NCBI RefSeq assembly: GCF_001562055.1
Contig: NZ_LLWE01000029.1
Span: 62,001 to 126,000 of the forward strand
Source of the DNA: Polycladidibacter stylochi
GTDB taxonomy: Bacteria; Pseudomonadota; Alphaproteobacteria; Rhizobiales; Stappiaceae
Length of the DNA: 64,000 bases
Direction: 5' to 3'
Shown here piece by piece: positions 18,705-41,779 of the stretch (positions are counted from its first letter, which is position 1; every line of letters starts with the position of its first letter). The notes under the pieces were generated by a model. It saw only the letters and a program-made list of their open reading frames with translations, ran no database searches and was not told where the DNA came from. Position numbers and translations under genes: made by a program.

Positions 18705-20552
18705 TTAGTCGACTTTACGTACAGCGCCCATAGAGGCACTGGTTGTCAATTTGGCATAGGCTTTAAGCGCTGATGAAACTTTACGTTTGCGCTGTTCTAC
18801 AGGCCTCCATGCATTGTCGCCTTTGGCTTCCATATCTTTGCGTCGCTGCGCCAAAACTTCGTCGGAAACCGCAATATCAATTTTGCGGTTTGGAATGTCA
18901 ATGTGAATAATATCGCCTTCTTCAATCAAGCCGATATTGCCTCCTTCGGCAGCTTCTGGTGAAACGTGCCCAATGGACAGACCAGAAGATCCCCCAGAAA
19001 AACGGCCATCGGTAATCAAAGCGCATGTCTTACCAAGCCCTTTAGATTTTAAATAGCTTGTTGGGTAAAGCATTTCTTGCATGCCGGGGCCTCCGCGAGG
19101 GCCTTCATAACGGATCAGAACGATATCGCCTTCTTTCACCTTGCCTGTGAGAATGGCACTGACGGAGCTGTCTTGGGATTCAAAAACCCGTGCTGGCCCT
19201 GAGAATTTAAGAATACTCTCATCCACCCCTGCGGTTTTCACAATACAACCATCTTGGGCTAAGTTGCCAAAGAGTACCGCTAAGCCACCATCTTGCGAGA
19301 AGGCATGCTCTTTTGAGCGAATGACGCCATTTTCGCGGTCGCTATCAACACCTTCAGCATAGCGAGAGGATTGCGAGAAGGCTTCTTGTGTTGGGACACC
19401 TCCTGGAGCTGCAGAAAAGAACTCATAAACTGCGCTATCATTGGTTCGTTTTACATCCCATAGGTCCAGCGCCGCTTTCATGTTTTCTGCATGAACGACA
19501 TTCACTGTATTATCCACTAAACCAGCGCGATCCAACTCACCCAATATACCCATAATTCCGCCAGCGCGGTGCACATCTTCCATGTGTACCGTCTCCAAGC
19601 TCGGCGAGACCTTACATAATACAGGCACTTTTCTCGACAGACGATCAATATCTGCCATGGTGAAATCGACTTCACCTTCTTGTGCTGCTGCTAAAAGGTG
19701 CAACACAGTATTGGTAGAGCCACCCATGGCAATATCCATGGTCATGGCATTACAAAAAGCTTCTCTCGTTGCCACATTGCGTGGCAAAACGCTGACATCA
19801 TCATTCTCGTAGTAACGGCGACAGAGATCGACAATCAAGCGGCCAGCTTGCAAGAATAGCTTTTTACGATCTGAATGGGTCGCCAAAGTGGAGCCATTGC
19901 CAGGTAACGAGAGGCCCAGCGCCTCAGTCAGACAGTTCATTGAATTTGCTGTAAACATGCCAGAGCAAGAACCACATGTGGGGCATGCGCTACGTTCAAT
20001 AGACTGCACGTCTTCATCCGAATAGCTGTCATCTGCTGCTGCTACCATAGCATCCACAAGGTCAAGCTTACGCGCTTCGCCATTGGCAAGTACCACCTTG
20101 CCCGCTTCCATTGGTCCACCCGAGACAAATACTGCCGGTATATTCAGGCGAAGGGCCGCCATAAGCATACCTGGGGTAATTTTATCGCAGTTAGAAATGC
20201 AGACCAATGCATCGGCGCAATGGGCATTGGCCATATACTCAACACTATCGGCGATCAATTCGCGTGATGGCAATGAATAGAGCATGCCATCATGCCCCAT
20301 GGCAATGCCGTCATCGACAGCGATGGTGTTGAATTCCTTTGCAATACCACCTGCTGCTTCAATTTCACGAGCCACAAGTTGGCCGAGATCTTTTAAATGA
20401 ACATGGCCTGGGACGAACTGGGTAAATGAGTTAACAACAGCAATAATCGGTTTGCCGAAGTCACCCTCTTTAACACCGGTTGCGCGCCAAAGGCCGCGGG
20501 CACCAGCCATATTGCGACCATGTGTGGATGTTCGCGAGCGATAGTTTGGCAT
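18705..20552 (-). CDS. ilvD: Dihydroxy-acid dehydratase
   Basis: A 615-residue [4Fe-4S] dehydratase that makes 2-ketoisovalerate and 2-keto-3-methylvalerate for branched amino acids. It follows the long E. coli-type form from its first residues (MPNYRS...[10 protein letters not shown]) and shows the cluster and active-site segments [21 protein letters not shown] and a C-terminal [14 protein letters not shown]. The ATG at 20552 is chosen because it follows GAGG; an in-frame TTG at 20564 lies over that site. A long leader separates it from thiC upstream, so it has its own promoter. Confidence 0.96.
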
Positions 20553-20611
20553 TGCATTCCTCAAGGATTGGCGAAGTTTAAATTCTTGGTTTTAACAGCT
20601 CTATACGCCAT

Positions 20612-20659
20612 AGCGTACCAAGCAGTACGCTTATAAAACATAACATAGCCATTTGGCAA
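20612..20659 (-). promoter_or_regulatory. Predicted ilvD promoter with an overlapping inverted repeat
   Basis: On the minus strand TTGCCA (20654-20659) and TTATAA (20631-20636) are spaced by 17 bases, about 80 bases before the ilvD start. The inverted repeat AGCGTAC/GTACGCT (20612-20618 and 20625-20631) falls at the transcription start and could be an operator or the first hairpin of the transcript. Confidence 0.45.
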
Positions 20660-20877
20660 GAAAATTACGCAAAGCCTTTATTTTCAGTAATGAAGATATT
20701 AAATGCCTGCATTCCACCTAATAATTGCACAGTATACTGACGTATTGAATACGTTATAAGCGCTGTTGAATTTGAAAAAACTATTGAGGGGCGTATCAGC
20801 TCAGATTTGATTAATAATAGCCGACTGAAGCATGGTTTCGCCCCTAAGCAATGAGCATTCGTTATTTAATCTTAAAA
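20660..20877 (-). other. Upstream region of ilvD with a possible structured element
   Basis: Between the thiC terminator and the ilvD promoter lie about 220 bases without an ORF. AGGGGCG (20787-20793) pairs with CGCCCCT (20839-20845), enclosing 45 bases. In the minus direction the element is followed within about 10 bases by a run of six T, which would fit a small RNA with its own terminator, or chance. Nothing else is seen. Confidence 0.3.
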
Positions 20878-20909
20878 GCGGGAAGCCCGTCGTAGACCGG
20901 CCTCCCCGC
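20874..20909 (-). terminator. Rho-independent terminator after thiC
   Basis: A GC-rich stem (GCGGGGAG with CTTCCCGC, one G-U pair) at 20878-20909 starts 6 bases past the thiC stop and is followed on the minus strand by TTTT (20874-20877) and further AT-rich sequence. Confidence 0.75.
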
Positions 20910-20914
20910 AGTTC

Positions 20915-22729
<1,815 letters not shown>

Positions 22730-23045: not shown

Positions 23046-23813
23046 TCAACGCACTGGCAAACGAATGCCACCGTCAAGCCGGATGGTTTCGCCGTTCAAC
23101 ATTTCGTTTTCACATATACTTTGTACCAAATGAGCATAGTCTTCCCCCTGCCCCAATCGTTTAGGAAACAGCGCTTGGGCTTCTAGTGCGTCCTGTACTT
23201 CCTGAGGCATTGAGGTCAACATCTGTGTCACAAACAAACCCGGTGCTATGGTGTTAACGCGAATGCCATTACGCGCTAAGTCTCGCGCAACGGGCAAGGT
23301 CAGGCCAACAATACCATTCTTTGAAGCTGCATAAGCTGCTTGGCCCATTTGCCCCTCGAATGCTGCAATGGATGCGGTATTGATAATTACCCCACGTTCG
23401 CCCGTGGCATTGAGTGGGCTTTGCGCGCTCATGCGTGTCGCCACCAGCGCGATCATTCGAAATGTGCCCACCAGATTTATGTCGATGACCTTTTCAAAAA
23501 GCTCAAGTGAATGGGGTTCACCACGACTGGTGGTTTTAGCTGCTGGGGCAATACCCGCACAGTTGACCAAAATGTGTATGTCGCCATAGTGAGCTTGTAC
23601 TTGGTCAAGTGCTTTGGCGATGCTGTCTTTGCTGGTTACATCAACCCGATAAAATTTTGTATTTAGTTCTTCTGCCAGCTTGCTTCCGGCTTCTTCATTT
23701 AGATCGAAGATAACAGGATTTGCTCCTAATGATGCCAGGTGCCTGACTGTTGCAGCACCAAGGCCCGAAGCTCCTCCCGTAACGATTGAATTAAGGTTAC
23801 GATTAATATGCAT
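23046..23813 (-). CDS. SDR-family dehydrogenase, 3-hydroxyacyl-CoA dehydrogenase type 2-like
   Basis: A 255-residue short-chain dehydrogenase. It shows the NAD-binding TGGASGLG (12-19), NCAGIAP, catalytic Ser148 and YAASK (Tyr161, Lys165), and a C-terminal ETIRLDGGIRLPVR. The AFEGQMGQAAYAASKNGIVG segment is characteristic of the HSD10/type 2 3-hydroxyacyl-CoA dehydrogenases of fatty acid and branched-chain degradation. GGGGAGG lies before the ATG. It starts 42 bases after the cyclase gene on the same strand and may share its transcript, but its role there is unclear. Confidence 0.85.
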   Translation of the reverse strand: MHINRNLNSIVTGGASGLGAATVRHLASLGANPVIFDLNEEAGSKLAEELNTKFYRVDVTSKDSIAKALDQVQAHYGDIHILVNCAGIAPAAKTTSRGEPHSLELFEKVIDINLVGTFRMIALVATRMSAQSPLNATGERGVIINTASIAAFEGQMGQAAYAASKNGIVGLTLPVARDLARNGIRVNTIAPGLFVTQMLTSMPQEVQDALEAQALFPKRLGQGEDYAHLVQSICENEMLNGETIRLDGGIRLPVR

Positions 23814-23855: not shown

Positions 23856-25211
23856 TTAATGGTGCGAGCTTGTAATGGATATAAGGTCTACATATTCCTC
23901 GATTCCTGCAATATGACGAAGGTTTGAGTTTTGGAGTTTTATCTTTAGGCCTTGGGCTTGAGCCCTATGGTAAGTTGTCGTGTCCGTGAGGCCGGAAGCT
24001 CTACTAAATTTGGTTGCCGCCTCGTATTTTGCCGCCCGATTGACAGCATCTCCGATCACCGTGAATTCACGACGCTCATCAACACCTATTACACCTAATG
24101 CGACCGTTCCCACTGAGACGCCAACACCGATTTGAAAGGCACCCGGCCAACCTGCAGCTTGCAGCTCTTGTTGATTGCTATCTATTTTATTGATTAGATT
24201 TTGTGCCGCTAATAGGGCATCGGCACAACAGCTGTTTGATGGTGCTAGCGCACCGAATGTTGCCATAATTCCATCACCTAAAAATTTGTCAACGGCGCCA
24301 TTATGCGCTTTGATCACATCTAGGGACAACTGCTGGTAACAAGCGAGAACCCTCAAGATTTCCGTGGGAGACATATTTTTAGCAACTTTTGTAAAGCCCC
24401 TTATATCAACAAACATAACAGTAGCTTGGCGCTCTTGGGCATCGCCTGCTTGTAACTCTTGATCTGCTGATACAATGGATTTGGCAACTTCTTGAGGAAA
24501 GTAACGGCTCAAGTCATCAACTGCACTGTGCTCCTTAATTGCAAGTAGCATTATTCTACGGCTTCTTTGAAGTGCCAATGCCAAAATGAGTGAAACAGCA
24601 ATGATGATGATGAACTTATCCAGTTCAGCACCAACGAGGATTTTGTTGCTTGTTAAATACTCTATGTAGTTGCGGGTTATACGGTTCATACCGTCTTGGG
24701 TATACAGCACGTAAGCGACCAGAAAAGCCCAGGCACTTGCTGCAATACCACCAATAAACAGAAGAATCCTGGGGTCATATCGTAATGCCCTTAAGCTGAT
24801 GAATAAGAACACATAGGCCAATGTTGGTGCCTTTAAATAAAAGGCCGGATGCTGATTGTATTGCAGGTGAAACGAAAACAACAATCCCATAACCAAAGCA
24901 ATGTCTACCACTGCTGAAAGCAATACCATTACGAGTGAAAGGTGGCTTGTAAAGGAGTAGTAAAAACGAATTGATGTAAAAATAGCATAAAATCCCAGCG
25001 CAATAGGCACGTAATTAAAGCCCATTTCGCCTTCTGCTCTTGGTGCTATAAAATAGAGACTTGAGAAAAAAATTAGAACAAGCAACTGAACTAGGCTAAT
25101 GAGTTTTTCTGCTTGATTTTCTTCTGCGCGAACCTTCTCCTGTAATCTGATTGGTAACTGCTCTATGGTGCAAGCAGGCCCTGTGAAGAGCTCTTTAAGC
25201 CCTGCTCGCAT
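23856..25211 (-). CDS. Membrane-bound class III adenylate/guanylate cyclase
   Basis: A 451-residue protein: about six transmembrane helices (roughly 37-230) and a C-terminal class III cyclase domain (about 260-420). Metal-binding Asp residues lie in FVDIRGF (Asp269) and KFLGDGIM (Asp313). The transition-state site reads GDAVNRAAK: the Asn is present but the usual Arg is Lys, as in some rhizobial cyclases. GGGAGG before the ATG at 25211 sets this start; an in-frame TTG at 25280 lacks a site. It lies downstream of the MBL hydrolase, the cyclic-nucleotide-binding protein and the ABC protein on the same strand, suggesting one signalling unit. The product (cAMP or cGMP) is not certain. Confidence 0.88.
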   Translation of the reverse strand: MRAGLKELFTGPACTIEQLPIRLQEKVRAEENQAEKLISLVQLLVLIFFSSLYFIAPRAEGEMGFNYVPIALGFYAIFTSIRFYYSFTSHLSLVMVLLSAVVDIALVMGLLFSFHLQYNQHPAFYLKAPTLAYVFLFISLRALRYDPRILLFIGGIAASAWAFLVAYVLYTQDGMNRITRNYIEYLTSNKILVGAELDKFIIIIAVSLILALALQRSRRIMLLAIKEHSAVDDLSRYFPQEVAKSIVSADQELQAGDAQERQATVMFVDIRGFTKVAKNMSPTEILRVLACYQQLSLDVIKAHNGAVDKFLGDGIMATFGALAPSNSCCADALLAAQNLINKIDSNQQELQAAGWPGAFQIGVGVSVGTVALGVIGVDERREFTVIGDAVNRAAKYEAATKFSRASGLTDTTTYHRAQAQGLKIKLQNSNLRHIAGIEEYVDLISITSSHH

Positions 25212-25518
25212 ATGGCCCTCCCGCCAAATATTCGTGATTATTTTTTGCGGTGCGCACTTACTATCTTTTTTAGAGAACAAAGCAATGACCCGTACACATA
25301 AGATGCTGTTCTTTTCAGCTCGTTGCGGCAGTTTGAGTGCAACTCAGTTTTGCATCTGGTTGAGTTATCAGAACTTTTTGGTGCTTGTTTTAGCTTTGGC
25401 TTGTAATACCCTTAGATAGACAAATTACTCGTATCAGCTAAAAAAGCCACTATTGTCTAAGTCTACATGTGTTAGGTGAAAGTTCTTTCGGTCATTTAAG
25501 TGTGTATTTAATCAAATT
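25212..25518 (-). other. Spacer between the MBL hydrolase and the cyclase
   Basis: About 307 bases without a supported gene. A minus-strand run of six T follows AGTGGC near 25440-25450, but I see no convincing stem, and no clear promoter. It could hold a separate promoter for the cyclase. Confidence 0.3.
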
Positions 25519-26340
25519 TTATAAATATATAATCTGACCGTCGTAGGCCATCAGCGCTCCACCATGCAAGTTACGTGCTTGATGTGCAATTGCATCCAGT
25601 TCATCATCAGTTCTTTTAGGGTCATGATGAAACAAAACCGGTGTTGCGACTTTTGCTTTTAAAGCCAAGTCGATTGACTGTTGCCATGATGAATGGCCAT
25701 AGCCTTTAAACCTTGGCAGTTCTTCGTCACAATACATGGCATCATGTAACATGATGTCTACACCCGAGACGAATTTCTCAATAGCCCTATCAATATGGGC
25801 TACGCCCATTTCGTGGTCGGTGATAACAGCGATGCTTTTAGCGTTATAAGTAATTCGATAGCCACAAGCTCCATCTGGATGATTAAGAGCTTGAGTTTCA
25901 ATCGTCAGACCACTGTCTTTCACCCATTTGTGCCCTGGCTCAAAATGCTTAAAAGATACACCTGTTAGCTTATTAGCTGTAACAGGAAAAATAGGCGGTG
26001 ACATAATCCGGCAAATTGTAGCTCGCAACTCTTCGTCTGAGGAGAGATTACCAGCGTAAAAGTCGACTTGGCAATCAGGCGCGTAAGCTGGAGCAAAAAA
26101 CGGTAGCCCACAGATATGATCGAGATGTGTATGCGTTAAAAAGTAATCATAGTGTTTTTGATCAAGTTTAGACAGGCTAAGGCCGAGCTTTCGTGCACCA
26201 GAGCCACAGTCAATGAGTATACGTTCATTTGCAGCAACTATTTCAAGCGCGATTGTCTCCCCGCCGTATCTCGCCATCTGCGGACCCGATACAGGTGTTG
26301 AGCCTCTCGTACCCCATAGTTTTACATAGAAATCACTCAC
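25519..26340 (-). CDS. Metallo-beta-lactamase-fold hydrolase
   Basis: A 273-residue MBL-fold protein. It has the opening strand motif LWGTRGSTPVSG, the metal site HTHLDH (70-75), and later candidate ligands in NHPDG (His154), TDHEMG, MLHDAMY (Asp200), GHSSW (His216) and FHHDPKRTDDEL (His238-239). This layout fits RNase Z/phosphodiesterase-like MBL enzymes rather than true beta-lactamases. Because it sits between a cyclic-nucleotide-binding gene and a nucleotide cyclase, cyclic nucleotide hydrolysis is a reasonable inference but not shown. The GTG start follows GGGGGGAAG. No signal peptide is seen. Confidence 0.83.
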   Translation of the reverse strand: MSDFYVKLWGTRGSTPVSGPQMARYGGETIALEIVAANERILIDCGSGARKLGLSLSKLDQKHYDYFLTHTHLDHICGLPFFAPAYAPDCQVDFYAGNLSSDEELRATICRIMSPPIFPVTANKLTGVSFKHFEPGHKWVKDSGLTIETQALNHPDGACGYRITYNAKSIAVITDHEMGVAHIDRAIEKFVSGVDIMLHDAMYCDEELPRFKGYGHSSWQQSIDLALKAKVATPVLFHHDPKRTDDELDAIAHQARNLHGGALMAYDGQIIYL

Positions 26341-26399
26341 GCTTCCCCCCTGAGTGCATTGATGTGCATGGGAGCAAAGCTATTGATACAAGGCTCATT

Positions 26400-26846
26400 T
26401 CACACCTTTGTTTCCGCCTTTAACGCTGCAAGTTCTCGTGTTGTCTGCTCAAGCCTGAATGCGATTTCTCGCATAATCTTGAAAGAAACGCCTGGAAATT
26501 CTTCTAATAGCTTTAAGAAATTGTCTTTAGATATTGCAAGGACTTTTGCCTCATTTGCAGCAACGAGCGTGGCAGTTCTTGGAATTTCACATAGGATGGC
26601 TATTTCCCCAAGTATATCGCCAGTGGTTGCCGTTATAACCCGTGTATCATCAACGTTCACGTCAATTTCACCTTGCAATATAACGAAAGCGCAGTCCCCT
26701 TCATCCCCTTGCAAGCAAAGCGTCTCACCTTTTGAAAGCTCTATACACTCAGAAATATAGGCCAATAGCTTAAGTTTTTTCTCGTCCAGGCTCTTAAAAA
26801 AACTCACCTTTTTCAAAGCGGCCATTTCATATTCAATTGTCATCAT
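26400..26846 (-). CDS. Cyclic nucleotide-binding domain protein
   Basis: A 148-residue protein made of a single cNMP-binding (CRP-type) domain without a DNA-binding helix-turn-helix. The phosphate-binding cassette reads GEIAILCEIPRTATLVA, with the conserved Glu and the Arg-Thr-Ala that hold the cyclic phosphate and ribose. Its start overlaps the end of the ABC gene by 14 bases (ATGATG, with GGAGG just before), so translation is coupled. It probably senses cyclic nucleotide and acts on a partner, most likely the ABC protein, by protein contact. An ATG nine bases further upstream contains the ribosome site and is less likely. Confidence 0.88.
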   Translation of the reverse strand: MMTIEYEMAALKKVSFFKSLDEKKLKLLAYISECIELSKGETLCLQGDEGDCAFVILQGEIDVNVDDTRVITATTGDILGEIAILCEIPRTATLVAANEAKVLAISKDNFLKLLEEFPGVSFKIMREIAFRLEQTTRELAALKAETKV

Positions 26847-29463
26847 GGCCTCCATTTTGATCTGTTTCCTGTTGTTCTATTCCCTGGCTATTGGCCAGTT
26901 GGCCGGACTTCAATTGCATTTGCCTTGGAAATTGCGAAGCAATTTCTGGGTCCGTTGTACCGACAATAAGTGTTTTATTTCGCAAATACTTTTGAAGAGC
27001 TTCTCGCCTTTGTTGTCCTTCAAGGGTTTTACTCGCAAGTGCCTCATCCAGTATGACAATATCGGCTTGTTTCATGAGTGCTCGCACCAAACCAAGCTGC
27101 CTCTTTTGATTGTCATTCAGGCGTGCACCAGCTATGCCTACATGGTACTCTAGTCCAGCCAACCTAATGGGCTTTACTAGGGAGTTGTCCTCGACCATTT
27201 CACGTATTACAGTTTCTATTCTTTGACGTGCGTCACGTTTTGTCAGTTTAACGGTACCGAATATGATGTTTGCTTCTACGCTTAAGTTTTGCATATAGGT
27301 CTTTTCATCAAAAAGTTCCAGTTGAGCTGGATATTGCGATGTTTCATCAATAAATTTATTACGCATCGTCACTATTTGAGCTTGAAAATCCTCAGTAACT
27401 ACACCAAGGCGGTGTTTGGTTGGTACAAGTCGCAACGCTATTGAAACCAGCTTCTTCTTATCTTTGTCAGATGGGGGGCGCTTTGACATCCCGGGGCCAC
27501 ATTGCTGCAACAATGATTGATAATGGGGCAAGTCGTCGTAGCTTATAAAGGCGTACGTAGAAAACAACTCACTATCAGGGCTGATATCTGCAAAGAGCTC
27601 AACCATTAGACTAATGGTTTGATAGCCCATTGTAACAAGTGGTTCATACAGCCCCGATTTTTCTATAAATGTCTTTATTCGTTTGTCTGCTAATAAATCT
27701 TCTAGTTTAAAGCCTGTTGTTCGCGGCACTGCATAAAACAGATTTTGCACCAATGTTGCTGACTTGTTGAAGCGATCACGCTCCCATGGCTCTATTAGCT
27801 TTGCGAGTGAGCTGTCATTTTTACAGGCTTTAGCAAATTCTTCTCTAAGTTTGAGAATGTCGATTTGCAGCTCATGGTGATCGTCCTTATTGAGGATAGC
27901 TTGCAGGCCAAGTCGATATAAATCTTGTGAAAGCCCTGTCTCTTCACATATTTCCAAGATATTATTATCAAGCTGTTGTGGTTGTGTGACGTTGGCAGTA
28001 GCCAAGTCATCCCAATTGGCGATTGAAAGGAGTTGAGGGTTGGATGTCATTTTAGCTTCGTATAGCCAGCGTTGCATTTCTCTTTGGCTTTGTTTGTCGA
28101 GAAGTGGAAGCGATTGCGGGCGGTGGCGCAAACCATAACAAATGTTGTCACGAAGTGTTCCGGTCCAAATGTGTGGCTTGGGACCCGCATATGCAATTTT
28201 TCGCCCCAATGTTGCTTCGCTCATCATTGAAAGACAATGTCCGGCCGCTTTTACCACCCCTTTATCGGGGTCAAGCAGGCCCGCCATTATCATGAGGAGG
28301 TCTTTGCGGCCGTCCGCTTCGCTCCCTAGAATTGAACAGTGTTCTGCATACGGGATTTGACAGTTTATATTATCAAGCTCGCTGGCACCGACCTCGGCTT
28401 GGTAGACAACGTCCTCTAACACAAGGGGACCTTTTAGGGATTGGACTTCATCACTCGTGAGCTTTTGTATGCTCTTTAAGTTTGCGGGATCGAAATTCTC
28501 AATCACTGTCTGGTATTTAATGTTTACATCTGCGGTAAGCTGATAATATGCAAGCAACTCTTTCCATGGGCCTGCCAGGTCTTTATAGGCAGCAATAACC
28601 GCCAATAATGCCCCAATGCTCAGCTCGCCTTTAATAGCCAGATAGCCACCAATTAAATAGAAAAAGAAAGGGGTTAGCTGGTTCATAAAGTTATTGATGA
28701 ACTTTATGAGGTATTTTCGGTTATATATATCAAAACGAATTTTAAAGTTCTTGTAGAGGCGATCAGCAAAATCGGCGCTGTGATACGCACTGGTATCGTT
28801 GGCGTGAATATCGGTAACACCTTGTATTGTTTCACCAAGACGATCGGCCATTACCCTTACATTTTGAACCCGCTGACGTGACAGCCTTAAAACACGTTTT
28901 TGTAGCTTAGGGATAATATAGCCTTGGATGGGGTATAGACTAATTGCTGCTAGCCCCAAGTAAGCGTCTTGCATGAAAATGAAGCCAATTTGCACAGCCA
29001 GCATACCACCTTGATAAGCCGGTAGAGCTAACGCTTCGCCTATGAAGCCGCCCACGGCCTCTACTTCTGCTGTTACCATCGGGATTATCTGACCCGAGCT
29101 GACTTTTTTAAAGTGAGATAGCGGGAAGCGCAGCACGCGCTGATACAAGTCAAAACGCAAGCGCCTGAGCATACGCTCTCCCAAACGGCCCTTATAGATA
29201 TTCAAGAATAATTTGAAGCCATTGCTAACAATAACTAAAAATAGAAAAAGCAAACAAAGAACTAGTAAATACTCAATTTGCCCCAGACTATAACCTGCAA
29301 TATTTTTTGGAAAGTCTGTACCACTTATCGCTTCATTCGTGATTTGTTTTGGCAATTCAAGCAGTATATAACTAACGGGATAGGAAAGACATGTGGCAAA
29401 CAATATGACAAGTTGGTAACGGGAGGAGTAACTCCAGATAAACTTGATAAGGCTCTTTTCCAT
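26833..29463 (-). CDS. ABC exporter-like protein with a degenerate, insertion-bearing ATPase domain
   Basis: An 876-residue protein. Residues 1-310 form an ABC exporter membrane domain with about six helices. The ATPase part starts near 345 but is atypical: the Walker A place reads GSEADGRKD (380-388) in place of GxxGxGKS, a Q-loop-like stretch with TGTLRDNICYG ends at 444, then about 280 residues of helical, charged sequence follow, then a second Q-loop-like NLSVEANIIFG (726-736), a weak signature LNDNQKRQ (782-789), Walker B IVILDEA (802-808), and no His switch (VGTTDPE). ATP hydrolysis may be lost or altered. It heads the minus-strand unit with the cyclic-nucleotide-binding protein, whose start it overlaps. 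Substrate unknown. Confidence 0.85.
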   Translation of the reverse strand: MEKSLIKFIWSYSSRYQLVILFATCLSYPVSYILLELPKQITNEAISGTDFPKNIAGYSLGQIEYLLVLCLLFLFLVIVSNGFKLFLNIYKGRLGERMLRRLRFDLYQRVLRFPLSHFKKVSSGQIIPMVTAEVEAVGGFIGEALALPAYQGGMLAVQIGFIFMQDAYLGLAAISLYPIQGYIIPKLQKRVLRLSRQRVQNVRVMADRLGETIQGVTDIHANDTSAYHSADFADRLYKNFKIRFDIYNRKYLIKFINNFMNQLTPFFFYLIGGYLAIKGELSIGALLAVIAAYKDLAGPWKELLAYYQLTADVNIKYQTVIENFDPANLKSIQKLTSDEVQSLKGPLVLEDVVYQAEVGASELDNINCQIPYAEHCSILGSEADGRKDLLMIMAGLLDPDKGVVKAAGHCLSMMSEATLGRKIAYAGPKPHIWTGTLRDNICYGLRHRPQSLPLLDKQSQREMQRWLYEAKMTSNPQLLSIANWDDLATANVTQPQQLDNNILEICEETGLSQDLYRLGLQAILNKDDHHELQIDILKLREEFAKACKNDSSLAKLIEPWERDRFNKSATLVQNLFYAVPRTTGFKLEDLLADKRIKTFIEKSGLYEPLVTMGYQTISLMVELFADISPDSELFSTYAFISYDDLPHYQSLLQQCGPGMSKRPPSDKDKKKLVSIALRLVPTKHRLGVVTEDFQAQIVTMRNKFIDETSQYPAQLELFDEKTYMQNLSVEANIIFGTVKLTKRDARQRIETVIREMVEDNSLVKPIRLAGLEYHVGIAGARLNDNQKRQLGLVRALMKQADIVILDEALASKTLEGQQRREALQKYLRNKTLIVGTTDPEIASQFPRQMQLKSGQLANSQGIEQQETDQNGGHDDN

Positions 29464-29746: not shown

Positions 29747-31027
29747 TTGAGTGCTGCGCGTATCCTCATTTATAGCCACGATACATTCGGGCTAGGTCAT
29801 TTGCGCCGGTGCAGAACCATCGCGCATGCGCTTGTGGCTTCTCGCGAGGATCTTTCGGTTTTAATCATCTCCGGCTCTCCAATCATTGGCCGGTTCGAGT
29901 TTCGCTCACGCGTTGACTTTGTACGCATACCAGGGGTTATTAAACTTCGCGGGGGGGATTATACCTCCATGTCATTACCACTTGGTATTGATGAAACCGT
30001 GAAGATACGTGCTTCAATTATCGAGCATACCGCTAAGATATTTACCCCTGATATGATGATTGTTGACAAAGAACCCCTAGGGCTTCGCGGCGAAATTCAG
30101 CCAAGCTTAAGCTACCTTAAACAAAGAGGAACCAAGCTTGTTTTGGGCCTAAGGGATGTTATGGATGATCCCAATATATTGCGTGAGGAGTGGCAACGGA
30201 AAAACGCTTTGCCTGCCTTAGAAGAATACTATGATCAACTTTGGGTTTATGGGCCGAGTTACATGACAAACCCTTTACAGGGTATAGAAATGCCCAAATC
30301 TGTTCGCGAGAAAATACGCTATACCGGCTACCTGCGACGTTCACGTATTAAGCTGGCCCAAAATATTGAAAAGCCGTTTGGGGAAACACCGTTCATTCTG
30401 GTAAGCCCTGGGGGTGGCGGAGATGGAGCTGAGCTGGTTGACTGGGTTATCCGTGCTTACGAGTCGCAAAGCGCCCCCTTATTTCCAGCTCTCATTGTTT
30501 TAGGACCATTCTTACCGCAGGCGCAAGCGGAGGCATTTAAAGAGCGGGCAGCGCGGTTACGTGATGTGGAGATTATTCGCTTCACCTCCAACCTAGAGCA
30601 GTACATGCAAGCCTCTACAGCTGTTGTTGGCATGGGGGGCTATAACACTTTTTGCGAGATTTTATCCTACGACAAGCCAGCGCTATTAGTACCACGTATT
30701 CAGCCGAGACGAGAGCAGGCCATTCGAGCAGAGCAAGCCAAAACCTTAGGCTTGGTGCAGGTGTTACCAATCGATTCTTATCCCGAAGTGTCCCCCATGG
30801 TTGCAGCGCTTCGGCAACTCCCTGCTGCGCCGCACCCCTCCCGCTTTAACAGTTCTATGATGCTGACTGGCTTAGAGCGTGTTCAAGAGTTAAGCAAGGA
30901 GCTGCTTGATACAAAGGTCCATGATAAAGGTATTGTAGAGCCGCAAAAACCACATCGCGCAAAAGCAAGCAGCGAACAACTCATCCATTTTCCGCCTAGC
31001 AGCTTACCACCACGTGCAAAAGAATAG
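29747..31027 (+). CDS. Predicted glycosyltransferase, MurG/GT28-like (COG4671 type)
   Basis: A 426-residue GT-B fold protein. The N-terminus has YSHDTFGLGHLRRC (about 9-22), the acceptor-side glycine loop of MurG-like enzymes, and the C-terminal half has a nucleotide-sugar site with LVSPGGGGDGAE and the GMGGYNTFCEIL motif. It probably moves a sugar from a nucleotide donor to a glycan or lipid acceptor at the inner face of the membrane. The start is TTG after GAGGG. It is the first gene of a five-gene operon; a related protein is encoded fourth in the same operon. Confidence 0.82.
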   Translation: MSAARILIYSHDTFGLGHLRRCRTIAHALVASREDLSVLIISGSPIIGRFEFRSRVDFVRIPGVIKLRGGDYTSMSLPLGIDETVKIRASIIEHTAKIFTPDMMIVDKEPLGLRGEIQPSLSYLKQRGTKLVLGLRDVMDDPNILREEWQRKNALPALEEYYDQLWVYGPSYMTNPLQGIEMPKSVREKIRYTGYLRRSRIKLAQNIEKPFGETPFILVSPGGGGDGAELVDWVIRAYESQSAPLFPALIVLGPFLPQAQAEAFKERAARLRDVEIIRFTSNLEQYMQASTAVVGMGGYNTFCEILSYDKPALLVPRIQPRREQAIRAEQAKTLGLVQVLPIDSYPEVSPMVAALRQLPAAPHPSRFNSSMMLTGLERVQELSKELLDTKVHDKGIVEPQKPHRAKASSEQLIHFPPSSLPPRAKE

Positions 31028-31038
31028 GGTTCGATCTT

Positions 31039-32292
31039 ATGAAACGTCTTGCAGTGGTGTTGAAAGGATATCCGCGTTTATCTGAAAGTTTCATAGCGCA
31101 GGAAATCTATGGTTTGGAACAACGTGGCTTCAAGATTCTCATCATCGCACTTCGTGCTCCTCACGACCCATTTTTGCACGAAGTTCATAGGATGATACGC
31201 GCTGAAGTACATTACCTACCCGAATATCCTGATGAAAAGGACGCGCGGGTGAGTAAGGCGGTTTCTTGGGCACAAAAAAACGCAAATTATGATAGGCTAT
31301 TGGAGTTGCAAGAGCACCGCAAAACCGCTTTACGATGCTCGAATTCATATGATGACAGAGAGGAGCAGCAACGCTTTTTGCAGGCGTGTGTGCTAGCCCA
31401 TGAGCTGCCAGAGGATGTCGGCTGGTTGCACGTGCACTATTTGCATAGCCCTTGTACTGTACTTGCCTACAGTGCTTGCCTGCTCGGCCGCCCCTGGTCA
31501 TTTTCGGCCCATGCCAAAGATATTTGGACCAGTAGGCCTGAAGAGCTACGTTTAAAGCTTCGTCATGCCAGCTGGGGGGTCAGTTGCACGCGCTATAACG
31601 TCAAGTATCTCCAAGAATTGAGTGATACCCCACAGAAGGTTTCACTCGTATATCATGGTTTAAAGTCGCAGGACTTTCCTGTTGTGAATGTGCAGCGTAG
31701 TTTCCAGCAAAAAGCATTTAATCCGCCCTTTGAAATCGTTAGTGTCGGGCGGCTTGTGGCGAAGAAAGGTTATGAAGACCTTTTAACAGCGCTTGGCAAT
31801 CTCCCTACAGAGTTTGAGTGGCAACTAACGCATATTGGTGCCGGTGAACTGAATGATGAGCTCCAACAACTGGCTGGTGAGCTTGGTATAGATCAGCGTG
31901 TGCGATTTTTAGGAGCCCTGCCACGCGATCAAGTCATTTGCCACCTACGCAAAGCCGACTTGTTCGTTTTGGCATGTAAAATTGCAAAGGATGGAGATAG
32001 GGACGGCCTACCCAATGTTATTATGGAGGCCATGTTGCTTGGCGTTCCTTGCCTCTCAACATCTATTTCGGCCATTCCCGAGATCATTGATGATGGTGAA
32101 ACTGGATATCTGGTTCCACCCGATATGCCAAATGCATTAAAAGAAGCGATTTTGGACCTGGCACATAACGATGGGTTGCGGTTGCAATTGGCACTAAACG
32201 GGCAGCGACGTGTCCTACAGAATTTTAATAGTGAGAGTTTACTGGACCAGCTGGCTACCCGCTTTGAAAGAAGCATTGGGGCTAGCCAATGA
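31039..32292 (+). CDS. Glycosyltransferase family 4 (WcaL-like)
   Basis: A 417-residue GT-B glycosyltransferase. The N-terminal KGYPRLSESFIAQEI is typical of WcaL/AmsK-type exopolysaccharide enzymes. The C-terminal family 1 domain starts near SVGRLVAKKGYEDL and ends with the donor site DGLPNVIMEAM, in which the first acid of the usual E-x7-E pair is Asp. It starts 11 bases after the previous gene and overlaps the next by 4 bases, so the three are translated together. Confidence 0.88.
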   Translation: MKRLAVVLKGYPRLSESFIAQEIYGLEQRGFKILIIALRAPHDPFLHEVHRMIRAEVHYLPEYPDEKDARVSKAVSWAQKNANYDRLLELQEHRKTALRCSNSYDDREEQQRFLQACVLAHELPEDVGWLHVHYLHSPCTVLAYSACLLGRPWSFSAHAKDIWTSRPEELRLKLRHASWGVSCTRYNVKYLQELSDTPQKVSLVYHGLKSQDFPVVNVQRSFQQKAFNPPFEIVSVGRLVAKKGYEDLLTALGNLPTEFEWQLTHIGAGELNDELQQLAGELGIDQRVRFLGALPRDQVICHLRKADLFVLACKIAKDGDRDGLPNVIMEAMLLGVPCLSTSISAIPEIIDDGETGYLVPPDMPNALKEAILDLAHNDGLRLQLALNGQRRVLQNFNSESLLDQLATRFERSIGASQ

Positions 32293-33416
32293 AAATTGCC
32301 TGTACGTTTCCCTTAGGCGCTCCTGAGGATACTGCCATTTCCGGGGACCGACAAATGGCGCGGCAGATCGTAAGAGGTTTGCAAAAACTGGGACATTGCG
32401 TGGTTCCCATGACACCATTTTGTAGCTGGCAACGGCATGCAGGCCGACGGCGCGCCAAACTCTTGCAAAGTCAAGGCGTTCAAATTGCTCAAAGTGATAT
32501 TCGGGCATGGGTCAATTGTCACTCTCCCCTTCCCCAAGCTGTCGTTTGTTATCACCTTTATCACCGCGCACCCGATTATCAAGGAGCATATATCGCCCGG
32601 TATTTTAAAATACCCTATGTGATCATTGAGGGTAGTTATGCGCCAAAGCGTGCGCTTGGGCCATGGTCCTACGGGTTTTATCAATCACGCGGTATGTTAC
32701 GACAAGCCGATGCTGTGGCCGCCATGACACAAGCTGATTTACAGTGCTTGAAACGAGTTGTGGCACCACATAGGCTATTGAACTTTCGCCCCTTTTGGGA
32801 TGGAAAAGTATCTAGCAGCGTAAAGCGCGAAAGTGATGAAGCAGCAACTAACTGTTGTCGTTTGCTTTGCGTTGCCATGATGCGTTATGGGGATAAATAC
32901 AAATCCTATGTTGCGTTGGCCCAAGCCTTATCATTGCTCAAAAACCGCCGTTGGCAGTTGACGATTGTTGGCGATGGCCCCGCCCGCCGTGATATTGAAC
33001 AACTGTTTGTTCACTTTTCTCCGCAAACTGTAAACTTTGTTGGTCGCATTTCTCCCAGCAAAATGAGCAGATATTACCAAAGGGCTGATATCTTTATTTG
33101 GCCGGCAATTCGCGAAGCTTTCGGAATGGTTTTTCTGGAGGCTCAATTTCACGGTCTTCCTGTTGTTGCAGGGCATTCTCTTGGTGTTGGTGATGTGGTT
33201 TACGATCAACAAAGCGGGCTGTTATTACCTGAAGGAGATGTCAAAAAACTGGCTGAAAACCTGGCAAAACTTATGGACCAGCCACCACTTCGCTTCACCA
33301 TGGGGCAAACAGCCCAAAGGCTTATGAACGAACGGCATAGTGCTCAAGTGGGTAAACAGCTTATTGCCACAACATTGGAGACTGCCTGCCAAAATTTTGC
33401 TGCTAAGGTTCGCTAG
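32289..33416 (+). CDS. Glycosyltransferase family 4
   Basis: A 375-residue GT-B enzyme. The C-terminal family 1 domain is clear: VGDGPARRDIEQL, VNFVGRISPSKM, and the donor-binding EAFGMVFLE (E-x7-E) with FHGLPVVAG. The N-terminal half is less conserved but keeps the ISGDRQMARQIVRGL opening typical of the fold. It is translationally coupled to the gene before (ATGA overlap). The donor and acceptor are not known. Confidence 0.87.
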   Translation: MKIACTFPLGAPEDTAISGDRQMARQIVRGLQKLGHCVVPMTPFCSWQRHAGRRRAKLLQSQGVQIAQSDIRAWVNCHSPLPQAVVCYHLYHRAPDYQGAYIARYFKIPYVIIEGSYAPKRALGPWSYGFYQSRGMLRQADAVAAMTQADLQCLKRVVAPHRLLNFRPFWDGKVSSSVKRESDEAATNCCRLLCVAMMRYGDKYKSYVALAQALSLLKNRRWQLTIVGDGPARRDIEQLFVHFSPQTVNFVGRISPSKMSRYYQRADIFIWPAIREAFGMVFLEAQFHGLPVVAGHSLGVGDVVYDQQSGLLLPEGDVKKLAENLAKLMDQPPLRFTMGQTAQRLMNERHSAQVGKQLIATTLETACQNFAAKVR

Positions 33417-33470
33417 TGGAAGGGTCGAGAAATTGAGTTAAAAACGGCAATTGCAAGTTATGAGGCTTTA

Positions 33471-34631
33471 ATGGAAGTTTTTATTCATGTGCAACATTTA
33501 CTTGGCAGCGGCCATGTTGTACGCGCTTGCGCCTTAGGGCAAGCTCTTGCAGCGCGTGGAGCTCGCATTCGCATTGCCCATGGCAATAGACTGCCGCCAA
33601 CGCTTAGTTGCGATAATCTGGAGATGGTGGCGCTTCCATTTGCAAAAACGCGTGATGTTTTTTTTAAAGAAATCCTCGACCAACAAGAAAAACCGCTTGA
33701 TGAAGTGTGGTGGCTCAAACGCCTCAAAGCAACCAGAGAGGCACTAGTTGCCAAACCCTGTGATATTTTTATAACTGAAACGTTTCCTTTTGGACGGCGG
33801 AGTTTTGCGCAAGAGTACCTCTACCTCATTTCGCTTGCCCGCAACATGGAAAGAAGACCGCTTGTTGTCAGTTCGATCCGAGATATTCTGGTTAGAAAAA
33901 AACAGGCTTATAAAGAACAATGGATGGCAGCGCAGGCGAGCGAACTCTATGACTTGGTGCTGGTACATAGCGACCCCAGCCTCATTCAGCTTCGTGATAG
34001 TTTCCCTTATACCAGTCTGATTGAGGATAAAATCCACTATACCGGTTTTATCAGCAGTGCCAAAAGCAACACAATAGGTGGTTCAGCAAACGAAAAAGAC
34101 GGCTTTGATGAAATCATCATTTCCTGTGGCGGTGGCGCGGTTGGCTTAAAACTGCTCGAAACCGCTATTGCTTGTCATCGTCTGGCAAGCATGGCCCAAA
34201 GTGGTACATGGCGTATTTTGGTGGGTAATGATATTCATGAGCAGGATTTTTCAAGGTTACAACAGTATCAAAGCGACCGTTTGATCGTAGAGCGGGCACG
34301 CAGCGACTTTACTCGCTTACTCAAGCGAGCCCGGTTATCGGTGTCACAAGCGGGATATAACAGCACACTAGATGTGTTAGGTGCCCAAATTCGTTCTGTG
34401 ATGATACCTTTTAGTCAAGGTCATGAAAGTGAGCAGCTGCAACGCGCGCAAGTCCTACAGGAAAAGTCGCGTGTACAGGTGGTTGAAGAGCACCAACTTA
34501 CACCGCAGAGTTTGGCTTGTGCCATTCAAAAGGCCCTAGCGGCTCCTTTGCCTGAGCTTTCGGTTGATATGAATGGTGCCGAAAACTCAGCGCGTATCTT
34601 GATAGATGCACTTGCCAAGCATCGTAGGTAA
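33471..34631 (+). CDS. Predicted glycosyltransferase, MurG/GT28-like (COG4671 type)
   Basis: A 386-residue protein related in plan to the first gene of the operon: the N-terminal HLLGSGHVVRA loop (9-19), a middle FGRRSFAQEYL segment, the C-terminal IISCGGGAVGLK, and SQAGYNSTLDVL, matching the GYNT motif of the paralogue. It likely transfers a different sugar in the same glycan. GAGG lies before the ATG. The gap to the previous gene is 54 bases. Confidence 0.82.
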   Translation: MEVFIHVQHLLGSGHVVRACALGQALAARGARIRIAHGNRLPPTLSCDNLEMVALPFAKTRDVFFKEILDQQEKPLDEVWWLKRLKATREALVAKPCDIFITETFPFGRRSFAQEYLYLISLARNMERRPLVVSSIRDILVRKKQAYKEQWMAAQASELYDLVLVHSDPSLIQLRDSFPYTSLIEDKIHYTGFISSAKSNTIGGSANEKDGFDEIIISCGGGAVGLKLLETAIACHRLASMAQSGTWRILVGNDIHEQDFSRLQQYQSDRLIVERARSDFTRLLKRARLSVSQAGYNSTLDVLGAQIRSVMIPFSQGHESEQLQRAQVLQEKSRVQVVEEHQLTPQSLACAIQKALAAPLPELSVDMNGAENSARILIDALAKHRR

Positions 34632-34653
34632 GTAAGGCTTAAGAGTAAGCTTC

Positions 34654-35487
34654 ATGACGCAAATACAATTCAAAGATTTTTTGTATGCTGAGTTGGATTG
34701 GTTCAAGGCACGGGGCCGGTGTATTTCTTTTTGGTGGCGTGATGATGATTGTATCCGTGTGACTACAGCGTTGCGCAGGCTGCTTCATATCCAAGAGAGG
34801 CATTCCACGCCTCTGGCGCTTGCTGTTGTTCCATATGCATTTCATCAAGAGACTATAGAACAACAAAGCAAGCTGATTGATTGTTTGCGCCAGCACAAGG
34901 GCGTTAACGTATTTGGGCATGGCTTTTCTCATCGCCCTACAGTGATGGAGCAAACTAGCCTTACTCAAATCAACCGATTGGGCCGTGTTGTGGAGCCAGT
35001 TAAGGCTGAATTTGGCAGCCTATGCGAATTGGCAACAGGTTTGCAGATGATCGCTCAGGGCTTTGAAATAATGCGCGGTAGCTTCAACGGGCTTTTTATG
35101 CCTGTTTTCGTACCACCTTGGAATCGACTGGATCCCAAGTTTTGGCGTTCAATGTCAAAGTGTGGCTACAAAGCTCTAAGCAGTTATGCGTTTACAAAAA
35201 AATTCAGCCCAGAGCAGGTACAAACTCACTTAGACATCATTCATTGGAGAGGGGACAAAGAGTTCTGTGGTTACGATGCGCTCATACACCAACTGGGTTT
35301 GCAGTTTGCGCGGCGGCGCGCTGGTAGCGATGAACCGATTGGCATCCTCTCACACCACTTGGTGCAAGATGATCGCGGTTTTGAGTTTCTAGACTTTTTT
35401 ATTGAGTGCTGTCACCACCACTGTGCTGCTAATTTTCCGCAGCTAGATGTTCTGTTTCAGCTTAACCCCACTGCCCCTGCTAATTAG
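34654..35487 (+). CDS. Polysaccharide deacetylase-like protein
   Basis: A 277-residue protein with a divergent NodB-like layout: WWRDDD at 27-32 in the place of the TFDDG metal-binding motif and HGFSH at 89-93 for the HxxxH motif, followed by VPPWNRLD. Such enzymes remove N-acetyl groups from glycans. It lacks a signal peptide, so it would work in the cytoplasm, on a lipid-linked or nucleotide-linked sugar. It ends the glycan operon 22 bases after the fourth glycosyltransferase, and its stop overlaps the convergent permease gene by 4 bases. Confidence 0.75.
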   Translation: MTQIQFKDFLYAELDWFKARGRCISFWWRDDDCIRVTTALRRLLHIQERHSTPLALAVVPYAFHQETIEQQSKLIDCLRQHKGVNVFGHGFSHRPTVMEQTSLTQINRLGRVVEPVKAEFGSLCELATGLQMIAQGFEIMRGSFNGLFMPVFVPPWNRLDPKFWRSMSKCGYKALSSYAFTKKFSPEQVQTHLDIIHWRGDKEFCGYDALIHQLGLQFARRRAGSDEPIGILSHHLVQDDRGFEFLDFFIECCHHHCAANFPQLDVLFQLNPTAPAN

Positions 35488-36683
35488 TGGTGGTACGGGT
35501 CTGCCGCATCACGTAAGCCATCTCCCAAAAAGTTAAAGGCCAGAACTACGATTATGACAACCAGCATGGGTGCCATGAGCCAAGGATAAAGTACAACAAC
35601 TGAAATGCTCTGGGCCTCATTGAGCAGCACCCCCCACGAGACCGCAGGGCGGCGCAGGCCAAGGTCTAAAAACGAAAGTGCCGTTTCTCCAAGGATCATA
35701 GCGGGGATCGACAGTGTAGCCGACGCGATTAAGTGACTTGTGAAACCGGGGAGTAGATGACGAAAGATAATTCGGCTTGGAGACGCCCCCATATAGAGCG
35801 CCGCTTTGGCGTAATCCTCTTGCTTTAACGCCATTATTTTAGCCCTCACAGCTCTGGCAAGTCCTGGCCAATCCAGCAAGCCCAGTATGACCGTTAGGCC
35901 CAAATAGACAGCAATTGGAGACCATGTAACCGGCATGGCAGCTGAAAGCGCCATCCACAATGGAAGCTCGGGCAATGAGCGTAGTATTTCGATGAGCCTT
36001 TGGATTGCACCATCAACCAGCCCTCCCAAGTAACCGGCCAATCCGCCCAGTACAACGCCCAGCACCATTGATATGGCCACCCCGACCAAACCCAACGTTA
36101 ATGAAAGTCTGGCTCCGTGGATCAGGCCGGATAATAAATCCCGCCCTAGTCTGTCTGTTCCCAAAGGATAAAAAACACCATTCTCTGGTGGGCAAACGAG
36201 ATGAAAGTCGAGTTTGAAAGTACCTAAATATTTATAGGGTTCGCCCCTACAAAAAAAGCGTAGATGCATGGGTTTTTGGGTTTCAATCTCGTAGTCCCAG
36301 CGCATAAACTCAAGATTAACAGATGCTTTCATCGGGTACACGAAAGGCCCTTGCCACTTACCTTCATGGAAAAGGTGTATAGATTGCGGCGGCGCATATA
36401 AGTAATCAGAGTTGCGTGTATTTGCAGAGTATGGGGCAATTTGCTCAGCAAAGGGTACGCATAAGTAGAATAATAAAAGCGTGTATAGTGCAAATACTGC
36501 AAGCCGATGCTTTTTAAAACGATAGTACACAAGCTTCCAACGGGAGGCGCTTGCCAACGCCACTTGCTCTCGCGCTAACGAGGTCTTCGCTTGAGGTTGA
36601 TAGGGATGCTTGGAGAGATAGTAGTCATCCTCGTTTTCATGGGGGCTGCTATTAGGCCTTTCATTATTTGGGGGAGACACCAT
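35484..36683 (-). CDS. Peptide-type ABC transporter permease, DppC/YejE family
   Basis: A 399-residue permease. A long N-terminal cytoplasmic stretch precedes the first helix (about 66-85), a large periplasmic loop follows (about 90-190), then the family signature LGTDRLGRDLLSG and the EAA loop QEDYAKAALYMGAS. The size and big loop resemble YejE. The ATG at 36683 follows AGGGAGG, overlapping the end of the upstream permease gene by 20 bases; a longer reading frame to 36797 has no ribosome site. It is the last gene of its operon. Confidence 0.88.
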   Translation of the reverse strand: MVSPPNNERPNSSPHENEDDYYLSKHPYQPQAKTSLAREQVALASASRWKLVYYRFKKHRLAVFALYTLLLFYLCVPFAEQIAPYSANTRNSDYLYAPPQSIHLFHEGKWQGPFVYPMKASVNLEFMRWDYEIETQKPMHLRFFCRGEPYKYLGTFKLDFHLVCPPENGVFYPLGTDRLGRDLLSGLIHGARLSLTLGLVGVAISMVLGVVLGGLAGYLGGLVDGAIQRLIEILRSLPELPLWMALSAAMPVTWSPIAVYLGLTVILGLLDWPGLARAVRAKIMALKQEDYAKAALYMGASPSRIIFRHLLPGFTSHLIASATLSIPAMILGETALSFLDLGLRRPAVSWGVLLNEAQSISVVVLYPWLMAPMLVVIIVVLAFNFLGDGLRDAADPYHH

Positions 36684-37746: not shown

Positions 37747-37921
37747 AATTTTCTACCTTATTTACTCTGGAGCTCCAACTGTTCTTTAGAGACCATTTTT
37801 TAGTGTTGTTGTTTCGATCCCAACTTAAATATAAAAAACTATCAAACAATTATTATTGTTAGTAGACCTAGGTTCTTTGTTAGTTTTGGGTAGTTAATTC
37901 AATCTATTACAGAATAATTGA

Positions 37922-41672: not shown

Positions 41673-41779
41673 CACAAGATATCACCTTTAAAATCTTGAT
41701 GAAGTTGTAATGCAAAAAAGCTACCCCTTAGTTAGATGGAAAGTATCAAGCTTAGAGATTTCATGAAACACTTCTTATT

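Follow-up and report, generated by a model that had tools for sequence, protein, structure and literature searches.

What does a small cyclic-nucleotide-binding (CNB) protein control when its gene directly follows that of a membrane protein shaped like a transporter? The question is raised by a locus of Polycladidibacter stylochi (Alphaproteobacteria; Stappiaceae) that lies in a stretch of 64,000 nucleotides (assembly GCF_001562055.1, contig NZ_LLWE01000029.1, positions 62,001 to 126,000 of the forward strand), referred to here as the window, whose positions are used throughout. Here, a CNB gene follows a gene for a protein that resembles ATP-binding cassette (ABC) exporters, and the two are conserved together far beyond the family. 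On balance, we favor the reading that the ABC protein is a cyclic AMP (cAMP)-responsive, ATPase-poor component of an envelope-glycan pathway that would be switched via the CNB protein. The genes concerned are all on the minus strand and are transcribed in the order in which they are listed:

26833-29463, minus strand: ABC-exporter-like protein, 876 amino acids (open reading frame [ORF] call, Pfam, AlphaFold2 model, Foldseek, motif census)
26400-26855, minus strand: CNB, stand-alone cyclic-nucleotide-binding protein, 151 amino acids (ORF call, Pfam, profile match)
25519-26340, minus strand: metallo-β-lactamase (MBL)-fold hydrolase, 273 amino acids, GTG start (ORF call, Pfam, NCBIfam, PDB profile search)
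23856-25280, minus strand: class III cyclase, 474 amino acids from a TTG start, with a predicted membrane domain of six long helices (Pfam, model, Foldseek)
23046-23813, minus strand: short-chain dehydrogenase/reductase (SDR) oxidoreductase (Pfam, gene order across loci)

A preliminary description of this DNA had grouped the first four of these genes, and all four ORFs are indeed present with family scores above the Pfam gathering cut-offs: PF00664 (71.6 versus 28) and PF00005 (46.5 versus 25) for the ABC protein, PF00027 (65.9 versus 27.5) for CNB, PF12706 (67.9 versus 27) for the MBL hydrolase, and PF00211 (58.8 versus 21.9) for the cyclase. The overlap of 14 bases that it gave for the ABC and CNB genes is one of three possible values (23, 14, or 11 bases), set by which of three ATG codons starts CNB, and the third ATG, with 11 bases, matches most aligned relatives. 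Its sensor without a fused DNA-binding domain is confirmed by the Pfam scan of CNB, which found no such domain above threshold and one subthreshold RecD2-HHH match (14.2 bits versus 27). Given that a gap of 238 nucleotides precedes the cyclase start as called, the cyclase may have its own promoter.

The ABC and CNB genes form a conserved pair

Relatives of the ABC protein were collected at several taxonomic depths. In a first sample of 61 genomes, all 61 had an ABC match at E ≤ 0.001, many of these being ordinary exporters, and strong relatives (best E < 1e-140) occurred in every one of the 37 genomes from the family (its own among them) and in 9 of 24 from the other families of the order. Gene neighborhoods were compared in a family/order set (45 loci fetched around strong ABC relatives, own locus excluded), a named set (the best 80 loci of a GTDB scan in which at least 577 of 590 pattern matches were confirmed), and a class/phylum set (20 loci in 18 genomes that were drawn from the class and the phylum). 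These sets are not independent, as loci L099 to L178 partly repeat genomes of L054 to L092 (e.g., L059 and L099). Longest-ORF clustering mislabels genes in GC-rich loci, and gene presence was taken from hidden Markov model (HMM) matches instead.

In the three sets, respectively, 45/45, 70/80, and 20/20 loci have a CNB gene on the same strand no more than 1.6 kb downstream of the ABC gene, or fused to it, which amounts to 135 of 145 loci overall across the overlapping sets. CNB is downstream in 44 and fused in 1 of the family/order loci, and adjacent in 64 and fused in 6 of the named loci; the class/phylum loci comprise 15 with adjacent genes and 5 with a fusion. The median gap between the two genes is 85 nucleotides (45 loci). 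The other members of the neighborhood, with sets in the same order, are the MBL hydrolase (40/45, 19/80, 6/20), the orthologous cyclase (34/45, 20/80, 1/20), any class III cyclase (35/45, 22/80, 7/20), at least two of five divergent glycan genes (41/45, 69/80, 12/20), and OppC within the stretch (22/45, 22/80, 4/20). The conserved core consists of two genes, ABC and CNB, usually inside a glycan locus, and the MBL hydrolase and the six-helix cyclase are additions in some lineages. The preliminary description had made conservation of the gene order its check, and on this count it was not refuted; the four-gene unit that it proposed is not what the wider sets contain, given the counts for the MBL hydrolase and the orthologous cyclase, and its limits were too narrow, since the locus extends to glycosyltransferase and Opp genes outside them. 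Among other explanations considered for the neighborhood, chance clustering is ruled out by these counts, and a phage gene is unlikely, a scan of viral contigs having returned 1 relative among 44 pattern matches.

ABC::CNB fusions support direct control

The two proteins are fused in one frame in twelve loci (L094, L128, L142, L150, L164, L166, L176, L227, L228, L229, L232, and L233), L227 and L228 being two copies in one genome. In all five fusions scanned by Pfam (L094, L128, L176, L228, and L233), a single chain matches both ABC_membrane and cNMP_binding with scores above cut-off. To see how the fusions are distributed, we used a tree holding 90 ABC sequences (17 of the 45 family/order and 72 of the 80 named proteins plus that of the window), from which seven near-copies were dropped by choice and which holds no class/phylum proteins, so that L227 to L233 are excluded. 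The fused label, carried by seven rows, needs three changes on this tree, possibly one gain and two losses: the main clade comprises six fused rows and an unfused one (L158), and L094 sits on a long branch with unsure placement. The fusions may have separate origins; the tree lends this no support, as one gain and two losses also fits. Direct, protein-level control of the ABC protein by CNB, which the preliminary description had suggested, is supported by the fusions in twelve loci, and class III cyclases of differing kinds beside the pair back it as well. Where the two proteins are encoded separately, they presumably make contact.

The ABC protein has an exporter fold and a degenerate ATP site

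The ABC protein can be divided into four parts:

28489-29463, minus strand: transmembrane domain, residues 1 to 325 (conservation blocks, model helices)
28108-28446, minus strand: N-terminal half of a degenerate nucleotide-binding domain (NBD), residues 340 to 452, with GSEADGRKD as Walker A (motif census)
27259-28107, minus strand: insert of ~280 residues, 453 to 735, with an apparently repeating post-Q-loop segment (hhalign, motif scan)
26884-27258, minus strand: C-terminal NBD half, residues 736 to 860, with a signature-like LNDNQ, Walker B ILDEA kept and H-loop His absent (motif census)

An exporter membrane domain and NBD fold are indicated by PF00664 and PF00005, by an AlphaFold2 model built from 73 sequences (mean pLDDT 88.1, pTM 0.83, residues 165 to 175 being poorly modeled), and by Foldseek, which matched the model to P-glycoprotein, PCAT1, TM287/288, and MsbA, with TM-scores on the query of 0.25 to 0.41 in the rows shown and a best single-chain TM-score on the target of 0.61 (PCAT1 core) among the matches listed. 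The membrane domain is the best-conserved long stretch, its blocks of 25 residues between residues 76 and 325 having mean conservation values of 0.59 to 0.85; most NBD and insert blocks have values of 0.38 to 0.61, and the signature block at residues 776 to 800 reaches 0.70.

The ATP site was assessed in an alignment of 73 rows (A5: 18 of the 45 family/order proteins and 54 of the 78 named proteins passing a score filter, in addition to the window protein) by counting five ATP-handling residues, namely, the Walker A Lys and Ser/Thr, the Walker B Asp and catalytic Glu, and the H-loop His. Not one of the 73 rows has all five; four are present in 2 rows, three in 13, two in 38, one in 10, and none in 10. 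The window protein lacks the aligned Walker A Lys and Ser/Thr and the H-loop His, a Lys standing one residue past the aligned Walker A position. The exporter-like output named in the preliminary description is borne out by the fold but not by the ATP-handling residues, which are degenerate across the family.

The insert (residues 453 to 735) had no Pfam match and no PDB sequence match. The two halves of the insert are similar to one another (hhalign P = 2e-15), and each has a weak similarity to the NBD part that follows the Q-loop (P = 3.5e-5, probability 72%, for the second half and P = 4e-4, probability 35%, for the first), the segments compared having been picked after the motif was seen. 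The motifs TLRDNICYG, TLVQNLFYA, and SVEANIIFG begin at residues 436, 570, and 728, and all three are present in 7 of the 10 rows printed. From these similarities, the insert would be made of repeated copies of the Q-loop strand and a helical segment. As a separate observation, three ABC relatives (L067:9384-11959, L088:8664-11230, and L089:8561-11140) are split into at least two frames near the insert start; L067 and L089 have further broken genes nearby, L088 is in a one-contig genome, and the cause may be sequencing error or decay.

The CNB protein keeps its phosphate-binding cassette

The part of CNB that is expected to hold the nucleotide is as follows:

26571-26612, minus strand: phosphate-binding cassette LGEIAILCEIPRTA, residues 82 to 95 (conservation across 118 proteins)

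Arg93 and Ala95 are found in 118/118 proteins, Glu84 in 115/118, and Thr94 in 110/118, and the cassette Glu and Arg together with the family score place CNB in PF00027. The best PDB matches of its profile are a Toxoplasma protein with multiple CNB domains, followed by the regulatory chains of PKG and PKA, in a search whose whole-chain scores favor multidomain proteins. In the reading favored here, the ligand would most likely be cAMP. Since the genome has eight PF00027 matches, the cyclic-nucleotide pool may serve further proteins besides CNB.

Class III cyclases of differing kinds accompany the pair

The cyclase next to the pair has two parts:

24510-25151, minus strand: predicted membrane domain, residues 44 to 257 (model helices)
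24000-24440, minus strand: class III catalytic domain, residues 281 to 427 (residue census in 53 proteins)

Its model (pLDDT 85.7, pTM 0.66) has six long helices followed by a class III domain, and Foldseek placed CyaC first and Rv1625c third; no Pfam family matched the membrane piece at window positions 24575 to 25115. Taking the roles of the metal, adenine-type substrate, and transition-state positions as we assume them to be, the metal residues Asp292 and Asp336 are kept in 53/53 proteins, Lys332 in 49/53, Thr407 in 53/53, and Asn414 in 53/53, in a census without L091, whose cyclase is of another type, and limited to cyclases of more than 380 residues. The PF00211 score, the metal Asp residues, the substrate Lys and Thr, and the Asn together identify the protein as a class III cyclase. 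Its catalytic domain is similar to that of CyaC (1wc1). With the M. tuberculosis six-helix class III cyclase Rv1625c/Cya (7yzk), it shares the predicted six-helix membrane domain and the class III domain with metal Asp residues and Lys/Thr, but the structural match is partial only (TM-score 0.44/0.53), the scanned membrane piece has no Pfam family, and a Lys occupies the transition-state Arg position.

In other lineages, nonorthologous class III cyclases lie near the ABC and CNB genes, and the cyclases found beside the pair are of differing kinds (six-helix, Fer2-fused, and others). A Fer2-cyclase, i.e., a fusion with a 2Fe-2S ferredoxin, follows CNB on the same strand at L225:6867-8663, L226:3179-5311, and L231:6361-8115, and in the genome of L226 (G784), it is the sole PF00211 match at E ≤ 0.001. 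The cyclase-domain HMM, built from nine seeds of which one is a 19-residue fragment, was used for detection only, and 8 proteins that it found were checked by Pfam. Class III cyclases occur in 7 of the 20 class/phylum stretches versus 0.84 expected from genome-wide counts (P = 7e-6) and, when a single genome represents each genus and its loci are pooled, in 5 of 16 versus 0.79 expected (P = 7e-4), P values that are optimistic because cyclases cluster in some genomes and genome sizes were rounded.

The MBL hydrolase resembles RNase Z and phosphodiesterases

The metal site of the MBL hydrolase lies at the following position:

26116-26133, minus strand: metal motif HTHLDH, residues 70 to 75 (active-site census)

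Ten positions to which we ascribe active-site roles (His70, His72, Asp74, His75, His154, Asp175, Glu177, His216, His238, and His239) are invariant in 60/60 proteins. A strong MBL match (E ≤ 1e-85, a threshold chosen after viewing the match list) is present in 20 of 27 ABC-bearing genomes versus 6 of 371 others in the phylum sample, counts uncorrected for kinship; 11 of the 27 are from one family and all MBL positive, and outside it the count is 9 of 16. The atypical class II cNMP phosphodiesterases (Rv1339, C. glutamicum CpdA, and YhfI; PMC9293780) have [T/S]HxHxDH as their motif, which THTHLDH of the window protein fits and which is present in all 13 rows of the MBL alignment (A3); the PF12706-type MBL fold and a kinship to RNase Z are further likenesses. 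In contrast to these enzymes, the window protein falls below the phosphodiesterase-specific cut-offs (NF041851, 37.3 bits versus 400; PF02112, 20.4 versus 23.7), and its nearest PDB sequences are RNase Z, YhfI not being among the six matches at E ≤ 1e-5. By these comparisons, it can be diagnosed only as RNase-Z/phosphodiesterase-like.

Surrounding genes

Beyond the genes described so far, the locus comprises the following:

29747-35487, plus strand, divergent: GT28-like, GT4, GT4, and GT28-like glycosyltransferases and a DUF2334 protein (Pfam/NCBIfam)
35484-41675, minus strand: Opp-type importer with OppC, OppB, OppA (solute-binding protein family 5), and OppDF (family matches, linkage)
41780-43744, minus strand: second class III cyclase, CYC2 (PF00211, 75.8 versus a cut-off of 21.9)

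CYC2 lies immediately upstream of OppDF, with which it shares the strand, has a weak Cache match (21.7 versus a cut-off of 45), and may belong to the same signaling locus as the ABC/CNB pair; it and the first cyclase are two of the four PF00211 matches in the genome. The SDR gene comes after the cyclase in family loci, or after the MBL hydrolase where the cyclase is missing (L071, L075, L076, L090, and L092), and is on the cyclase strand in 32/32 loci and on the MBL strand in 5/5 cyclase-less loci. Downstream of it, at window positions 18705 to 22714, are genes that presumably correspond to ilvD and thiC; many Pseudovibrio loci likewise have IlvD at their edge. A histidine phosphatase (PF00300) lies between two glycosyltransferase genes at L118:3594-4181; its cluster is present in 12 of the 43 loci compared and was not noticed in the window. 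The L118 contig itself, from a metagenome-assembled genome (MAG) labeled Anaerolineae (Chloroflexota), is probably misbinned, as its ABC protein is nested among those of Alphaproteobacteria.

Relation to HetC and other known systems

ABC proteins that carry a CNB domain are known, HetC of Nostoc PCC 7120 being an example (PMC10986499), and the family studied here has an unusual NBD. The CNB domain lies at the N terminus of HetC, whereas it is C terminal or separate in the family studied here; HetC has a C39 peptidase, but no peptidase family was found in the window ABC protein, for which Pfam at E ≤ 0.1 gave ABC_membrane and ABC_tran alone; and an ATPase residue is essential in HetC, in contrast to the degenerate ATPase motifs here. 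HetC is an example of a CNB domain that can be essential and yet respond to guanosine tetraphosphate (ppGpp): both ppGpp and GTP protected the domain, cAMP having no significant effect. With MsbA, PCAT1, TM287/288, and P-glycoprotein, the window protein shares the membrane domain and NBD fold, but it differs in the lack of any row with all five ATP-handling residues and in the insert with its repeats.

Proposed mechanism and alternative readings

In the mechanism that we favor, membrane-bound class III cyclases at the locus would synthesize a cyclic nucleotide, with cAMP as the likeliest candidate, and CNB would bind it and act directly on the exporter-shaped membrane protein. The NBDs of the latter seem unfit for a normal ATPase cycle, and cyclic-nucleotide binding by CNB would, in place of such a cycle, switch it between states. 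The switched protein might then gate, or report on, the movement of the product of the neighboring glycosyltransferases (a glycolipid or glycan precursor), and the MBL hydrolase might serve to terminate the signal or to trim that product. The computed support consists of the gene order, its conservation, the fusions, the intact CNB and MBL site residues, the degenerate NBD, and the recurring cyclases. We infer the identity of the ligand, the direction of control, the substance transported, and the MBL substrate.

Several findings weigh against this mechanism. In 49 of 53 cyclases, the window protein included, a Lys stands where the transition-state Arg is expected (Arg in 4/53), which leaves cyclase activity unproven. 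The cyclase excess, with the optimistic P values noted above, falls to 4 of 16 versus 0.76 expected (P = 0.005) if the cyclase-less L230 takes the place of its sister L231; most distant loci lack the MBL hydrolase and the orthologous cyclase; and no cyclase is present in the stretch of 58 of the 80 named loci. CNB is elsewhere in the stretch, away from the ABC gene, in 3 of the 80 named loci (L143, L157, and L173) and was not seen in the fetched stretch of 7 (L147, L151, L158, L160, L172, L174, and L178), of which L160 and L174 have only 586 and 33 bp of contig downstream of the ABC gene and the other five 3.5 to 8 kb; loci without CNB beside the ABC gene are mostly gammaproteobacterial and burkholderial MAGs. 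On the ATP side, residual binding or turnover is possible because a Walker A Lys is still found in 30 of the 73 ABC proteins, 7 of the 9 motif residues checked survive in a single row (L169), and the Walker B Asp-Glu is intact in the window protein. Finally, the CNB domain fused to the exporter HetC bound ppGpp, with no significant protection by cAMP (PMC10986499).

The last two points feed into different readings. The ABC protein could still be an ATP-driven flippase, slow or asymmetric and perhaps working as one half of a heterodimer whose other, canonical half-exporter is encoded at an unlinked site, with CNB merely tuning it. Its overall exporter fold, the PF00005 score above cut-off, the Walker B ILDE of the window protein, and the retained Walker A Lys residues speak for this, as do the degenerate sites reported for working heterodimeric exporters. 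We regard it as doubtful: the five ATP-handling residues are never all present, and no canonical partner was found at the locus among the six neighboring ABC hits checked (five of OppDF type and L166:1326-2411, an ABC_tran protein without a membrane domain), weaker edge hits lying outside the check. It is unlikely, in our view, that CNB is an adaptor in fold only or binds another ligand such as ppGpp, the adjoining cyclases serving other targets; the HetC precedent, the named loci without a cyclase, and the eight PF00027 genes of the genome, which could use the pool, are what such a reading can draw on, but it has to contend with the near-invariant cassette Glu and Arg and the nonorthologous cyclases at the locus in other lineages. 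That these are merely coregulated envelope genes, whose CNB and ABC products do not touch each other directly, is a thought prompted by their position within a large glycosyltransferase/Opp locus, and we consider it highly improbable in view of the twelve fusion loci and the tight spacing, with an overlap of 11 to 23 bases here and the short median gap among relatives.

A step beyond the switched, ATPase-poor protein that we favor, we entertain as a tentative possibility that this ABC-fold family gave up ATP as fuel altogether and became a cyclic-nucleotide-gated channel, a lipid/glycan scramblase, or a receptor, with CNB as its regulatory subunit. This possibility is raised because no row has an intact ATP site, the membrane domain is conserved, CNB is beside or fused to the ABC protein in 135 of 145 loci, twelve of them are fusions, and the cyclases are varied. 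CFTR and SUR are examples of ABC proteins turned to other uses.

Prevalence and significance

Of 385 genomes drawn evenly from the class, 130 encode the ABC protein (118 of 315 of good quality; E ≤ 1e-100), mostly as a single copy, as do 27 of 398 genomes of the phylum. No NCBIfam family reached its cut-off for it among the matches listed (25 of 100), and Pfam gives two general ABC domains only. We found no description of the ABC/CNB pair among the papers listed by searches of the open-license literature, a scope outside which most subscription papers and preprints lie.

Many Alphaproteobacteria carry a pump-shaped protein with degenerate ATP parts beside, or fused to, a cyclic-nucleotide sensor, in a gene cluster for sugar coats. 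If the proposed mechanism is true, cyclic nucleotides would have a membrane protein, and not a transcription factor, as their target in a locus that resembles those for envelope-glycan assembly, and the natural ABC::CNB fusions would make the idea testable within one polypeptide.

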